Positions 1,969 to 7,074 of a stretch of DNA of 56,707 bases are shown piece by piece. Positions within the stretch are counted from its first letter, which is position 1, and each line of letters starts with the position of its first letter. The stretch comes from a virus, in the IMG/VR virus record IMGVR_UViG_3300041409_000548, positions 1 through 56,707 of that record; one strand, given 5' to 3'. The notes below the pieces were generated by a model. That model was not told the origin of the DNA and ran no database searches. It saw only the letters and a list, made by a program, of their open reading frames with translations. The translations under genes were made by a program, and so were the position numbers.

Positions 1969-3011
1969 CCGCCGGACTCGACCGCATCGGCACCCGCTCC
2001 CCAGCCCCCGCCGCGGGCCTCAGTCAAGCCACCGCCATCGAACAAGCCCGCGCCGTCGCCGAAGTCCAAGCCGCCGTCTACGTCGCCCAAGCCAACCCGC
2101 GCGACCTCGAACGAGCCGTCGCCGAAATGCGCGAAGCCTGCGGACGCCTCGCCCTCGCACGCCACGCCTTCTACGCCGTCGTCAACCGCGGCACCGGACC
2201 GTCCGTCCACCTCGCCCGCGAACTCATCCGCATCTGGGGCAACGCCGACTACGGCGTCCGCGAACTCCGCCGCGACGACACCGCCGCCGAATCCGAAGTA
2301 CTCGCGTTCGCGTGGGACCAGCAGGCCAACACCCGATCCTCCCGGTCGTTCATCAACCCCCACGCCCGCATGGTCAAGAAGGAACGCCAAGCCCTCACCG
2401 ACCTCGGCGACATCTACCTGTCGAACCAGAACATCGGCGCCCGCGCCGTCCGCGAATGCATCTTCACCGTCCTGCCGAAGTGGTTCACCGAAGAGGCGCA
2501 GGACATCTGCCGCGCCACCTTGGAGAAGGGCGACGGGAAGCCCCTCGCCGACCGCATCCGCGACGCGGTCGCGGTCTTCGACAAGCTCGGCGTCGGCGCG
2601 CAGCGGATGGAAGCCAAGGTCGGGCGCAAGCGCGGCCAGTGGACCGCGGCGGACATCGGTGACTTCGAGGTGGCGTACACGTCGATCACCCGCGACGGGG
2701 CCAGCGCCGACGACCTGTTCCCCGCCGCGCGGGTGACGGCCGACGAGATCCGGGGACAGGCGCCGGCTCCGCCGCCCGACGAGGCGCCGAACGGTGTGCG
2801 GATGGACGACGGGCAGCGCAAGCTGCTGTTCGCCCTGCTCGGCGACAACGGCCTCTCGGCCGACGACCGGCGCGCGGACCGTCTGACGTGGATGTCCGCT
2901 GTGCTCGGACGCGGCGTCACCACGTCGAAAACCCTCACCGCGGCCGAGGCGTCGAAGCTGATCGACACACTGGACCCGCAGCCGCCCGAGGACGAGGCGG
3001 AGGCGTCATGA
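1965..3011 (+). CDS. RecT-like single-strand annealing protein
   Basis: The 348-residue product matches the actinophage family usually annotated as RecT-like single-strand DNA-binding protein. Recognised features are 'QATAIEQARAVAEVQAAVYV' near the N-terminus, 'GPSVHLARELIRIWGN', 'WDQQANTRSSRSF' and 'IVP/INPH'-type segments, and 'PLADRIRDAVAVFDKLGV'. It would coat the single strand made by the RecE-like nuclease and anneal it to a homologous strand, supporting recombination and genome circularisation. The C-terminal third is a poorly conserved tail. The start ATG overlaps the upstream stop. Confidence 0.82.
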   Translation: MTAGLDRIGTRSPAPAAGLSQATAIEQARAVAEVQAAVYVAQANPRDLERAVAEMREACGRLALARHAFYAVVNRGTGPSVHLARELIRIWGNADYGVRELRRDDTAAESEVLAFAWDQQANTRSSRSFINPHARMVKKERQALTDLGDIYLSNQNIGARAVRECIFTVLPKWFTEEAQDICRATLEKGDGKPLADRIRDAVAVFDKLGVGAQRMEAKVGRKRGQWTAADIGDFEVAYTSITRDGASADDLFPAARVTADEIRGQAPAPPPDEAPNGVRMDDGQRKLLFALLGDNGLSADDRRADRLTWMSAVLGRGVTTSKTLTAAEASKLIDTLDPQPPEDEAEAS

Positions 3012-3289
3012 CCGCCTCGCAACTGGACCTCACGGACCGCATCGAGGACGCCCTCGACGTGGCCGAGCAAGCCGCCACCCAAGCGCAGACCATCGGGCGG
3101 GCCTGGCCCATCGAACACGCCCGACACACCCGCCTGTGGGGACCGAACCGTGTCCTCACACTCATCGCAGCCGAAAAGCAAGACCTCGAACTCGCCGCCG
3201 ACTGGCTCACCAGCGCCGACCACCAAACCCGCTGGCACGGCACCGTCGTCCTCAACCGCATGGCCGCACGGTGGGGAATCGAACCGTGA
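3008..3289 (+). CDS. DUF6221-like protein (copy 1)
   Basis: The 93-residue protein has the outline of DUF6221: an N-terminal 'LTDRIEDALDVAEQAA' helix, a central 'GPNRVLTLIAAEKQDLELA' and a terminal 'MAARWGIEP'. The 55393-55731 product ends in a very similar 'LAARWGVTP', and a third member is encoded on the opposite strand at 14603-14998. The family is common in actinophages and actinomycete mobile elements and has no known function. Confidence 0.75.
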   Translation: MTASQLDLTDRIEDALDVAEQAATQAQTIGRAWPIEHARHTRLWGPNRVLTLIAAEKQDLELAADWLTSADHQTRWHGTVVLNRMAARWGIEP

Positions 3290-3468
3290 CCCGCCGCGCC
3301 AAGGCCTGCCCACGGCCCGACAAGCCCCGCTACACCGACCCCGACAAGGCGTGGACCGAAGCCCGCCGACTCCGCAACCGCGTCTGCGACGGGCGGCTAC
3401 TCAACGCCTACCCCTGCCGCTGCGGCTACTGGCACGTCGGCAACGCACGCCCCAGGCGGGCCGCATGA
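3286..3468 (+). CDS. Small basic zinc-finger-like protein
   Basis: The 60-residue, Arg-rich protein has 'YPCRCGYWHVGN' near its C-terminus, a pattern frequent in small actinophage proteins. The cysteines and histidine could bind zinc. It starts at a GTGA overlap and ends in an ATGA overlap with the methyltransferase gene. No function is assigned. Confidence 0.65.
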   Translation: MTRRAKACPRPDKPRYTDPDKAWTEARRLRNRVCDGRLLNAYPCRCGYWHVGNARPRRAA

Positions 3469-4574
3469 ACACAGATTGCCGAGCAGTCCGAGGCAGCGGC
3501 GTGAGGATCGGCTCCCTGTGCTCCGGCTACCGCGGCCTCGACCTCGCCGTGCAGACCGTCCTCGGCGGCGACGTGGTGTGGGACGCCGAGTATGACCCCG
3601 ACGCGTCGAAGGTCCTCGCCCACCACTGGCCGGGCACCCCCAACCACGGCGACATCACTCGCGTGGACTGGACCTCCGTGGAACCCGTCGAGGTGCTCGC
3701 CACCGGGTACCCGTGCCAGCCGTTCAGCCACGCCGGCAAACGCGAAGGAGAAAACGATGCCCGACATCTCTGGCCTTTCGTGGCGGACGCCGTTCGCGTT
3801 CTACGACCCCGACTCGTCGTGCTGGAGAACGTCGCAGGCCACCTTTCTCTCGGGTTCGGACGAGTACTCGGGGACCTGGCCGCCGTCGGGTATGACGCGC
3901 GGTGGGTGCGCCTACGGGCTTCCGATGTGGGAGCACCCCACGGGCGGGCGCGGGTCTTTGTTGTTGCTGAAGACGCCCACGGCGCAGCTCGCGGTGAATG
4001 GCGGGTCGCAGCACCCGAACAAGCGGAAAGCCGGGGGGCACGGGCCGACACTCGCGGACGAGGTGGAGCACCTCCTGCCGACTCCGAGAGCGACTCGCGG
4101 TGGTTCGGCCACGGAAACGACGTACCTGCTCCCGACACCACGCGCGACGGACGGGACAAAAGGCGGACCGAACCAGCGCGGCTCGTCGGGGGATCTGATG
4201 CTCCCGAGCGCGGTTGTTCAGCTCCTCCCGACACCGTTGGCGTCAGACGCGGGGCCACGGGGTGGGACAACGGGATTCGGGCTCAGAGACTGGTCGCGCG
4301 CTATGGCAGTTGGGGCGACTACGCCCCCGCCATCGAGCGGTGGGAACGAATCCTCGGACGGGCAGCTCCCGCTCCTACCGAGCCCGGCCGCACCGGGCAG
4401 CCCCGCCTGAGCCCCCCGTTCGTCGAGTGGCTCATGGGTCTCCCCGCCGGCCACGTCACCGCCGTACCCGGCCTCACCCGCAACGCGCAGCTCCGGATCC
4501 TCGGCAACGGCGTGGTGCCTCAGCAAGCCGCAGCCGCCCTGGAATGGCTGCTACCCGACGAGGCCGCCGCGTGA
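3465..4574 (+). CDS. dcm: DNA (cytosine-5) methyltransferase
   Basis: The 369-residue enzyme has the ordered motifs of C5 methyltransferases: motif I 'SLCSGYRGLDLA' (residues 17-28), motif IV 'GYPCQPFSHAG' with catalytic Cys84, motif VI 'LENVAG' (120-125), motif VIII 'GAPHGRARVFVVA' (156-168) and the C-terminal motifs IX-X 'RILGNGVVPQQAA'. It would methylate cytosine in a target sequence, probably to protect phage DNA from host restriction. The region between motifs VIII and IX, where target recognition is expected, is Ala/Gly/Arg/Asp-rich, has relaxed third codon positions, and coincides with a second gene in the +1 frame at 3757-4410. Confidence 0.92.
   Translation: MNTDCRAVRGSGVRIGSLCSGYRGLDLAVQTVLGGDVVWDAEYDPDASKVLAHHWPGTPNHGDITRVDWTSVEPVEVLATGYPCQPFSHAGKREGENDARHLWPFVADAVRVLRPRLVVLENVAGHLSLGFGRVLGDLAAVGYDARWVRLRASDVGAPHGRARVFVVAEDAHGAARGEWRVAAPEQAESRGARADTRGRGGAPPADSESDSRWFGHGNDVPAPDTTRDGRDKRRTEPARLVGGSDAPERGCSAPPDTVGVRRGATGWDNGIRAQRLVARYGSWGDYAPAIERWERILGRAAPAPTEPGRTGQPRLSPPFVEWLMGLPAGHVTAVPGLTRNAQLRILGNGVVPQQAAAALEWLLPDEAAA
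3757..4410 (+). CDS. Gene nested out of frame inside the cytosine methyltransferase gene ('LPTP' protein)
   Basis: A 217-residue protein is encoded wholly inside the methyltransferase gene in the +1 frame. The ATG has a strong ribosome-binding site (AAGGAG at 3745-3750, six bases upstream). The sequence looks like a real family: it opens with 'MPDISGLSWRTPFAFYDPDS', continues with 'SGTWPPSGMTRGG', and has three 'LLPTP' motifs plus 'GGPNQRGSSGDL'. Proteins of this kind are commonly found beside actinobacterial and phage methyltransferases and carry no known function. In the overlap its third positions are richer in G and C than those of the methyltransferase frame, which argues that selection acts on this frame. 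It could be a methyltransferase-associated specificity or accessory protein. Confidence 0.75.
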   Translation: MPDISGLSWRTPFAFYDPDSSCWRTSQATFLSGSDEYSGTWPPSGMTRGGCAYGLPMWEHPTGGRGSLLLLKTPTAQLAVNGGSQHPNKRKAGGHGPTLADEVEHLLPTPRATRGGSATETTYLLPTPRATDGTKGGPNQRGSSGDLMLPSAVVQLLPTPLASDAGPRGGTTGFGLRDWSRAMAVGATTPPPSSGGNESSDGQLPLLPSPAAPGSPA

Positions 4575-5891: not shown

Positions 5892-6268
5892 CGCGCCAGC
5901 TGCCGCCCATCGCGGACCGCCCGCCGGTGTGCCCCTACGGGATGGGTTCCCGCCGCTGCTACGACGCCTACGGGTGCCGCTGCGGGCCGTGTTCGGCCGC
6001 GAACGCGGCGCACGCGAAGGCGTGGCACGACGCCGGGCCGCGGCGCGGCTCCGACTGGGTGAACGTGACCCGGCTGACCCGGGGTGAGATCCCGTTCCGG
6101 GAGGCGACGATCGCCGAGCGGGTCGCAGCGATCCGCAGCCTGCGCCGCGACCCGGACCTGACGGTCCGCGCGATCGCCCGCAGGATCGGGACGGGCCCCA
6201 GCACCGTTCACCACATCTGCGCGCGGGAACACATTCCCGCCGCCCGACCAGGAAGGCGCGCAGCATGA
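5888..6268 (+). CDS. Zinc-finger and helix-turn-helix protein
   Basis: The 126-residue protein has a cysteine cluster near the N-terminus ('CPYG', 'CYDAYGCRCGPC', residues 15-37) and a C-terminal helix-turn-helix 'TVRAIARRIGTGPSTVHHI' (about 92-110). It probably binds DNA. It lies between RusA and the amino-methyltransferase and overlaps both by 4 bp. Confidence 0.7.
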   Translation: MTRQLPPIADRPPVCPYGMGSRRCYDAYGCRCGPCSAANAAHAKAWHDAGPRRGSDWVNVTRLTRGEIPFREATIAERVAAIRSLRRDPDLTVRAIARRIGTGPSTVHHICAREHIPAARPGRRAA

Positions 6269-7074
6269 GCGAGGGCCTCTACTACGCCGACGATCACGTC
6301 GCCCTGTACCACGGCGACGCCCGGAACCTGCTGCCGTACATGGCCGGCGTCGACCTGGTGCTGGCCGACCCGCCGTACGGCTCGACCGGTCACGCATGGG
6401 ACCGCTGGCCGGACGGGTGGCCCGAGCAGGCCGCAGCGGTTGCCAAGGCCATGTGGTGCTTCGGGTCGATGCGCGTCTTCCTCAAGCACCACGGCGAGAT
6501 CGAGGCCGCCGGGTGGCGGTACTCGCAGGACACCATCGGCACCGACGACGACGGCCACATGGTATGGGAGAAGAACACCGGCTCCCGCCCGGCCGCGTCC
6601 GACCGGCTGAACTGCGTCCACGAGCACGCCACGTTCTGGTACCAGGGCCGGTGGACCGACCGGTACCACGAGGCGCCCCGGGTCCCGAACACCGGGCGCC
6701 ATCAGGGTTCCGCGGTCCGCGTGGCCGCGACCGGTGGCGGTCGCCTCACGGGCGGGCAGTACGGCGCCCGTGAGGGATGGGTGGACGACGGGACTCGGAT
6801 CCTCCGATCCGTCATCCGCGCCCCCAGCATGCGCGGCAAGGCGATCCACCCCACCGAAAAGCCCGTCACCCTGCTCACCCCGATGCTCGCCTACGCCTGC
6901 CCACCCGGCGGCACCGTCCTCGACCCGTTCGCCGGATCCGGTTCCACTGCCGTCGCCGCCCGCGCCCTCGGCATCCACACCGTGCTCATCGAGGACCGCG
7001 AAGAGCAGTGCGAGGCCACCGCCAAACGCCTCTCGCAAGCCGCGTTCGACTTCGGGGACGACCGTGCGTCCTGA
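6265..7074 (+). CDS. DNA amino-methyltransferase (N6-adenine or N4-cytosine)
   Basis: The 269-residue enzyme carries the catalytic 'LADPPYG' (DPPY at 35-38) and the cofactor-binding 'DPFAGSG' (220-226) near the C-terminus. This order, catalytic motif first, is that of the β class. The motif DPPY is used by both N6-adenine and some N4-cytosine enzymes, so the product is uncertain. 'HPTEKP' before the cofactor motif is typical. Together with the cytosine-5 enzyme it gives the phage two DNA modification activities, probably against host restriction. Confidence 0.88.
   Translation: MSEGLYYADDHVALYHGDARNLLPYMAGVDLVLADPPYGSTGHAWDRWPDGWPEQAAAVAKAMWCFGSMRVFLKHHGEIEAAGWRYSQDTIGTDDDGHMVWEKNTGSRPAASDRLNCVHEHATFWYQGRWTDRYHEAPRVPNTGRHQGSAVRVAATGGGRLTGGQYGAREGWVDDGTRILRSVIRAPSMRGKAIHPTEKPVTLLTPMLAYACPPGGTVLDPFAGSGSTAVAARALGIHTVLIEDREEQCEATAKRLSQAAFDFGDDRAS

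Follow-up and report, generated by a model that had tools for sequence, protein, structure and literature searches.

An overlapping frame in a phage cytosine-5 DNA methyltransferase gene that probably encodes a second, target-recognition chain

In 56,707 nucleotides of viral DNA (IMG/VR virus record IMGVR_UViG_3300041409_000548, positions 1 to 56,707; the whole stretch analysed, hereafter the window), a gene for a cytosine-5 DNA methyltransferase, alpha, contains a second gene, beta, in its +1 frame. We consider it probable that the overlapping frames of the locus together encode a cytosine-5 DNA methyltransferase of two chains, with beta bringing the target-recognition modules; that alpha and beta are parts of one enzyme appears very likely from their sequences and those of their relatives. 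Across these relatives, both frames are free of stops, silent sites of alpha are frozen at a conserved motif in the head of beta, and the stretch bearing the repeated LPTP modules evolves as beta protein. In other relatives, alpha's own frame contains the same LPTP modules, placed between motifs VIII and IX.

In the arrangement that we favor, alpha (frame 0) would supply the catalytic motifs I-VIII and, beyond a long and probably unstructured linker, the C-terminal motifs IX and X; this linker would occupy the usual place of the target-recognition domain. Beta (+1) would start from its own ribosome-binding site within alpha and would consist of a short conserved head, with the signature W/L-P-x-S-G, followed by an array of LPTP modules. 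The two chains would be made separately from one message and would then assemble, with beta docking on alpha to provide in trans the target recognition that the linker of alpha cannot. We infer from the sequence comparisons presented below that beta is translated, that it binds alpha and acts in recognition, and that different modules correspond to different target sequences.

Two overlapping genes in the window

The DNA of the window is ~70% GC, and its PHROG matches, which include a RecT-like protein, a RusA-like resolvase, a DnaB-like helicase, and portal, major head, and tape-measure proteins, identify it as a tailed phage (a GC-rich caudovirus). None of 50,697 phage records gave a near DNA match to its first 20 kb. 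Another DNA methyltransferase gene (6265-7074; PHROG 67, 4.2e-43) is found 1.7 kb downstream of alpha and beta. The features of the locus, with the evidence for each in brackets, are the following:

3465-4574, + strand: alpha, cytosine-5 DNA methyltransferase, 369 codons, frame 0 (PF00145, PHROG 363)
3507-3548, + strand: alpha, presumed motif I (conserved in the alignment)
3705-3749, + strand: alpha, presumed motif IV with Pro-Cys-Gln (conserved in the alignment)
3745-3750, + strand: ribosome-binding site of beta, AAGGAG, within the coding for alpha motif IV (sequence, start survey)
3757-4410, + strand: beta, nested +1 gene, ATG to TGA, 217 codons (stop avoidance, silent-site freeze, start signal, PHROG match)
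3793-3924, + strand: beta head, ending in WPPSGMTRGGCAYGLP, with W-P-x-S-G at 3877-3891 (frozen silent third bases of alpha)
3813-3968, + strand: alpha motif VI (3813-3839) to motif VIII (3924-3968), with the beta head over them out of frame (alignment; +1 frame stop-free in 80 of 80 loci)
3964-4290, + strand: beta LPTP modules, at 3964-4071, 4072-4125, 4126-4221, and 4222-4290 (module clustering, substitution phase)
3969-4304, + strand, frame 0: probably unstructured linker of alpha, kept open, that joins motifs VIII and IX (58 loci with the window's layout; model of the relative L130)
4306-4410, + strand: beta tail, out of frame over the alpha C-terminal part (substitutions here follow frame 0)
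4311-4553, + strand: alpha C-terminal part, with motif IX at 4407-4454 and motif X at 4491-4553 (PHROG 1008, 9.2e-38)

Alpha matches PF00145 (3.7e-32) over residues 14-169 only, where the match ends, and PHROG 363 (4.1e-70) over residues 9-360. It possesses the N-terminal catalytic motifs of the C5 DNA methyltransferases, namely I, IV (PC), VI (ENV), and VIII, with the P, C, E, N, and V of these motifs invariant in 18 aligned relatives. Motifs IX and X are present in the same chain and were assigned by eye to residues 315-330 and 343-363. The methyltransferase frame keeps motifs I, IV, VI, VIII, IX, and X, in line with the original prediction that it retains all its motifs.

The description of beta made from the letters of the window alone is equally borne out. 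The 217-codon frame (3757-4410) is +1 with respect to the methyltransferase frame (3465-4574), lies entirely within it, and overlies motifs VI to VIII (3813-3968) out of frame; AAGGAG at 3745-3750 is followed by six bases and then by the ATG of beta. Three copies of the repeated LLPTP motif and one LLKTP are seen in beta, and its third positions are richer in GC than those of the methyltransferase frame over the same stretch (80.6% vs 65.7%; the value over the whole methyltransferase frame is 74.5%). The +1 frame is open from 3505, and an ATG at 3592 is a possible alternative start, with a ribosome-binding site noted only at 3757. At the other end, the last ~35 residues of beta are dictated by the C-terminal part of alpha.

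In relatives, too, the region where beta begins is marked by start signals. A Shine-Dalgarno match of at least 4 accompanies 114 of 268 ATGs in the beta zone, vs 27 of 175 in the +1 control and 3 of 54 in the +2 control, and at least one start with such a match is present in the beta zone of 162 of 192 loci. The strong starts cluster 40-41 codons before the W of the head motif, with the start in the window at 40.

Searches with beta recovered 0 Pfam families at E values up to 1 and likewise no match in NCBIfam. However, its residues 3-165 match PHROG 1008, named 'DNA methyltransferase' (9.7e-24), which is also matched by alpha residues 181-363 (9.2e-38). This shared match was the first sign that the LPTP part and the C-terminal part form one ORF in other phages, and PHROG 1008 was presumably built from relatives with both parts in one ORF. 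The entry is silent on the out-of-frame overlap of its family with the catalytic ORF.

Both frames are kept open and are constrained in turn

Long open frames are abundant in the window, with 118 stop-to-stop stretches of at least 217 codons (68 on the plus strand and 50 on the minus strand); hence, length alone is no argument, and the case rests on relatives. The evidence from the window by itself is modest: permutation of synonymous codons gives P = 0.016 for the +1 frame being open over 164 codons and, again, P = 0.016 for frame 0 being open over the LPTP stretch. Relatives were gathered in three ways: by beta, by alpha, and by a profile of alpha motifs I-VIII regardless of beta. From 131 sequences, with L001 (a second copy of the window stretch) skipped, 126 rows were taken on, and the 119 with a C-terminal match were classed by layout. 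Loci found via beta (L004-L083 and L098-L130) are biased with respect to openness of the +1 frame; a further 80 (L131-L210), with GC contents of 41-74%, were picked on alpha alone.

It had been proposed at the outset that the idea of a nested gene be judged by stops in the nested frame of homologues. All 80 alpha-selected loci passed this test, whose span, used also for the conventional methyltransferases below, is the roughly 52 codons that end at motif VIII: over motifs VI-VIII we found 0 stops vs 68.9 expected, with the +1 frame open in 80 of 80 loci (32.1 expected). In the same loci, the +2 frame has 127 stops vs 161.7 expected and the +1 frame upstream of beta has 288 vs 291.9. These expectations derive from permuted synonymous codons. 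Sixteen conventional C5 methyltransferases from the same host genomes show 16 +1 stops vs 20.6 expected, and the head motif, in the form W/L/F-P-x-S/W-G/R, is found in 0 of the 16, so that the head is no general consequence of encoding C5 motifs in GC-rich DNA. A chance ORF is likewise ruled out, by the relatives and not by length.

Frame 0 is kept open in a comparable manner where beta carries its modules. In the 58 distinct loci with the window's layout (class ii, defined below) that were used in the shuffling test, most of them found with beta, frame 0 over the LPTP stretch has 0 stops vs 77.1 expected when the LPTP protein is held fixed and is open in 58 of 58. The +1 frame of this class, followed from motif VI to the C-terminal part, is not perfectly open, with 5 stops, in 4 of the 58 loci, vs 80.0 expected. 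In this shuffling test, the value from permuted codons (64.9) was preferred to an expectation from upstream codon usage, as the latter is too high (113.8 for a control with 58 observed). More broadly, of the 103 loci in which the C-terminal part shares alpha's frame, every one has frame 0 open across the gap. The stop counts in +1 and frame 0 together indicate that both frames are kept open. Alignment columns at alpha residues 107 and 111 do show +1 stops (14% and 16%, respectively), which, in the loci inspected, lie upstream of the beta head, before an insertion. L040, L044, and many actinophage alphas have an insertion with spaced cysteines (e.g., EPCPGCVG) between motifs VI and VIII, just before the beta head.

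A profile of the head run over the DNA collected here gave 137 hits inside alpha in +1 and 19 in unanchored loci, several of these also being inside alpha in +1. A seemingly free-standing copy of the head, from an early tblastn row (L027), was rejected, as its translation proved to consist of LPTP modules in frame 0 only.

The imprint of the head on alpha is most apparent at silent sites, for which 192 distinct loci were retained. The third base of alpha codon 127 is C in 176 of 181 four-fold codons (42 of 46 in low-GC3 loci), that of codon 129 is C in 120 of 128 (13 of 13), and that of codon 130 is G in 171 of 188 (44 of 51). Difference rates at these three codons are 0.05, 0.03, and 0.17, vs ~0.63 upstream. 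The frozen bases coincide with the W/L-P-x-S-G of beta, AT-rich phages included. The constraint from the head is limited to a few positions, since the mean third-base rate of class ii over motifs VI-VIII is not lowered (0.382 vs 0.342 upstream).

Comparison of class ii pairs, which are not independent of each other, shows the leading frame to change along the gene. Over motifs VI-VIII, the substitution rates at frame-0 positions 1, 2, and 3 are 0.227, 0.199, and 0.382, so that alpha's wobble is fastest; over the LPTP stretch they are 0.360, 0.207, and 0.178, with beta's wobble fastest; and over the C-terminal part they return to alpha's phase (0.175, 0.167, and 0.402). The GC content of the class ii gap at frame-0 positions 1, 2, and 3 (85.0, 66.7, and 62.2%) agrees with beta's LPTP frame. 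The original prediction had both frames coding and the pair under a double constraint. Both frames indeed behave as coding in relatives, in their stop counts, frozen silent bases, and substitution phase. As for the double constraint, both frames are constrained, but the constraint acts as a relay rather than uniformly: over motifs VI-VIII alpha is dominant, with a few silent positions frozen for beta, and over the LPTP array beta is dominant, with alpha only stop-free.

LPTP modules, changes of frame, and alternative readings

The LPTP modules number 629 and fall into 273 clusters, 50 of which occur in at least three loci; 20 of these 50 are found in both frames relative to alpha. Different loci have modules in common, in changed order. 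The module DGTKGGPN was a search seed, and its count (86 loci, 3 of them alpha-selected) is inflated. A survey of 192 loci, based on regular expressions whose two passes differ slightly (e.g., for L102 and L119) such that single loci may be misplaced, distinguished the following layouts. In class ii, that of the window, the LPTP modules are in +1 and the C-terminal motifs in alpha (73 loci); in class i, both are in frame 0 (46 loci); in class iii, LPTP, IX, and X are all in +1, and alpha ends just after VIII (19 loci); and in a fourth layout, IX is in +1 and X in alpha (11 loci). The other 43 are of other or truncated form, 22 of them with a motif IX match only in +1. In class i, alpha carries LPTP modules itself, so beta is not the sole source of modules there. 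L124 (Luteimicrobium album; 2643-3905) has LPTP and part of the C-terminal region in +2, with stops in frame 0, and is either a further layout or a broken copy. In L047 (2589-6609), two copies of the system stand in tandem in ~4 kb of one virus contig.

The placement of the modules bears on what beta might do. In C5 enzymes, the recognition domain sits between motifs VIII and IX. For the single-chain relative L130, whose LPTP modules are in frame 0, structure prediction gives a C5 methyltransferase fold (pLDDT 79.2, pTM 0.79; Z 23.3 and rmsd 2.8 over 244 residues vs M.HhaI). Its linker (residues 168-213) has pLDDT < 50 and its LPTP part (about 214-255) is of modest confidence; the model would put the LPTP modules between motifs VIII and IX, in the place of the recognition domain. 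Beta alone gives a model too weak to use (pLDDT 59, pTM 0.22), with four short strands predicted at low confidence in its head, and its comparison by sequence with solved structures yielded nothing useful (best E 0.13). Beta has its own start, its model is poor, and its recognition role is drawn from position and analogy, all of which would suit a separate partner without a role in specificity, e.g., an inhibitor, a chaperone of alpha, or an anti-restriction factor. We hold this to be unlikely, as single-chain relatives carry the LPTP modules in frame between motifs VIII and IX, and beta in other relatives also carries motif IX, or both IX and X, which are parts of the enzyme.

The constraint on amino acids in class ii, running through frame 0, +1, and frame 0 again, together with relatives such as L130 and L060 that encode LPTP modules and motifs in one frame, could also be accommodated by recoding, in which ribosomes would begin translation in alpha, enter the LPTP array by a +1 shift, and return to frame 0 ahead of the C-terminal part to make one mosaic chain. 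This appears quite improbable: the beta head over motifs VI-VIII would fall outside the mosaic product, yet it is conserved at bases silent in alpha, and beta has starts and Shine-Dalgarno sites of its own. The junctions also speak against recoding. At least one frame-0 LPTP is present in 53 loci, and in 28 of the 34 close cases, which come from relatives with the array partly in frame 0, a +1 stop ends beta exactly 8 bases before the first of them; the stops of the 34 cases are of all three kinds (TAG 20, TGA 12, TAA 2), the codons preceding them vary, and no common slippery site is seen by eye. The constant position of this stop suggests rather that beta is made to end where its modules end. 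In GC-rich phages (L017, L022-L031, L049, L060, L130, and others) the stop 8 bases ahead of the frame-0 LPTP is often provided by a GTA valine codon. Reinitiation at a start overlapping the +1 stop in class i was considered, as the first junctions looked like GTGA or ATGA, and was rejected, for GTA accounts for 20 of the 34 frame-0 codons that overlap the stop.

On a tree of alpha built from the 149 loci outside the other or truncated group, the four layouts require at least 27 changes, pointing to frequent frameshifts, and the nearest rows to the window are of class i, with the frame-0 layout. Such lability might mean that the window's beta or alpha is degenerating, left over from a split (class iii) ancestor in which the C-terminal part shifted into alpha's frame. 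We judge this very improbable: the open gap in 103 of 103 loci indicates that the layouts are maintained, and the catalytic motifs, beta start, and modules of the window are intact. Finally, the view that alpha alone is translated, with the +1 frame a by-product of GC-rich codons and the conserved bases an RNA or DNA element, can appeal to the 118 long chance stretches in the window, yet it is scarcely credible in light of the lack of stops (0 vs 68.9) in loci whose GC content spans 41-74%, the absence of the open frame and head from conventional methyltransferases encoded by the same genomes, an LPTP stretch in beta's codon phase, and class iii loci, where the C-terminal enzyme parts lie only in beta's frame.

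Spread of the system and comparison with known methyltransferases

The two-chain enzyme that we prefer would not be confined to the window. Its beta is matched in 153 of 50,697 phage records, and the beta of L087, which is of the motif-IX kind, in 37 phage records and 2 plasmids. In 6 of 6 records inspected from these 39, the match lies in +1 inside an annotated methyltransferase ORF, is stop-free, and is itself without annotation, a weaker statement for the two plasmids, since the plasmid collection describes its own gene table as incomplete. Four of the six are phages (Salmonella phage S9-5, Synechococcus phage S-H1, Lacticaseibacillus phage R23.9, in which the host ORF is labelled hypothetical, and Acinetobacter phage ABMM1), and two are plasmids, of Leptospira interrogans and of the archaeon Methanomethylovorans hollandica. 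The permutation P values for +1 openness range from 0.0095 to 0.18 for the individual records. Relatives of the S9-5 gene are present in 4 of 5,426 E. coli genomes. Gordonia phage Gudmit, which grows on Gordonia terrae, has the gene as gp58. In some actinophage records, a further methylase ORF that overlaps the first is annotated; in Arthrobacter phage Colucci (L002, 1939-3979), the annotated gp82 corresponds to alpha and gp83 to a long beta that includes LPTP modules and motifs IX and X, but the start given for gp83 is downstream of the beta head.

A wider generalization has, in our estimate, about an even chance of being right: that this family, widespread in phages and also present in plasmids, works as a specificity machine in two frames, in which small indels move recognition cassettes, and even motifs IX and X, between a catalytic and a hidden chain, that phages reshuffle specificity in this way, and that many single 'Dcm' genes are two-subunit enzymes with a specificity subunit that was never annotated. 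Should beta be the specificity chain, phage methyltransferases of a common class have been named and modelled in the absence of the component that selects the target, anti-restriction predictions made from alpha alone would fail, and recoding of the annotated gene, as in a codon-optimised construct, would destroy beta. The system would also be an instance of same-strand gene overlap that is widely distributed among phages and plasmids, with evidence at silent sites that is directly testable, and a natural case of exchangeable recognition modules moving between two chains.

Two-chain C5 methyltransferases as such are already known; the new part would be the phage-wide overlap, the LPTP array, and the migration between frames, for which no description was found in a search of titles and abstract starts in the open literature, most subscription papers being outside its scope. 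M.EcoHK31I and M.EaeI are both two-chain enzymes, and the small gene of EcoHK31I reportedly lies inside the large one in another frame. The window would resemble EcoHK31I in having the second chain coded inside the first in a different frame. PMC3404938 assigns to the large chain of M.EcoHK31I motifs I-VIII and X, together with the predicted recognition domain, and to the small chain motif IX; this placement of the recognition domain counts against the role proposed here for beta. For the split enzyme M.AquI, it assigns to alpha motifs I-VIII and to beta the distal variable region with IX-X. The M.EcoHK31I layout, with IX in the small chain and X in alpha, is encountered in at least 11 of the 192 loci, in addition to the 22 of other or truncated form with an IX match only in +1. 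In contrast, motif IX of the window is in alpha (4407-4454), and its beta comprises the head and LPTP modules only. With M.AquI the window shares the division into two chains, and a comparable layout, with IX and X in the small chain, is seen in 19 of the 192 loci. It differs in that beta begins deep inside alpha and overlaps VI-VIII, and in that alpha also runs through IX and X.

A protein hidden out of frame in a phage methylase whose own frame stays open is also seen in gp65 of the actinophage ShiLan, where, according to PMC9957025 and PMC11855218, the hidden frame is an HNH endonuclease insert. That case involves a mobile insert in another methylase, and the ShiLan relative of the present gene is gp70, so that ShiLan has both. 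We rejected beta as a homing endonuclease insert of this type, as it lacks an HNH match (0 Pfam families at E up to 1).

A further comparison is with the multispecific C5 methyltransferases of Bacillus phages, in which tandem, exchangeable recognition modules are placed between motifs VIII and IX of one chain, in one frame. The loci described here are like these enzymes in having several modules in tandem, which are shared and reordered between loci. They are unlike them in that the modules lie in an overlapping frame and would belong to a separate chain.
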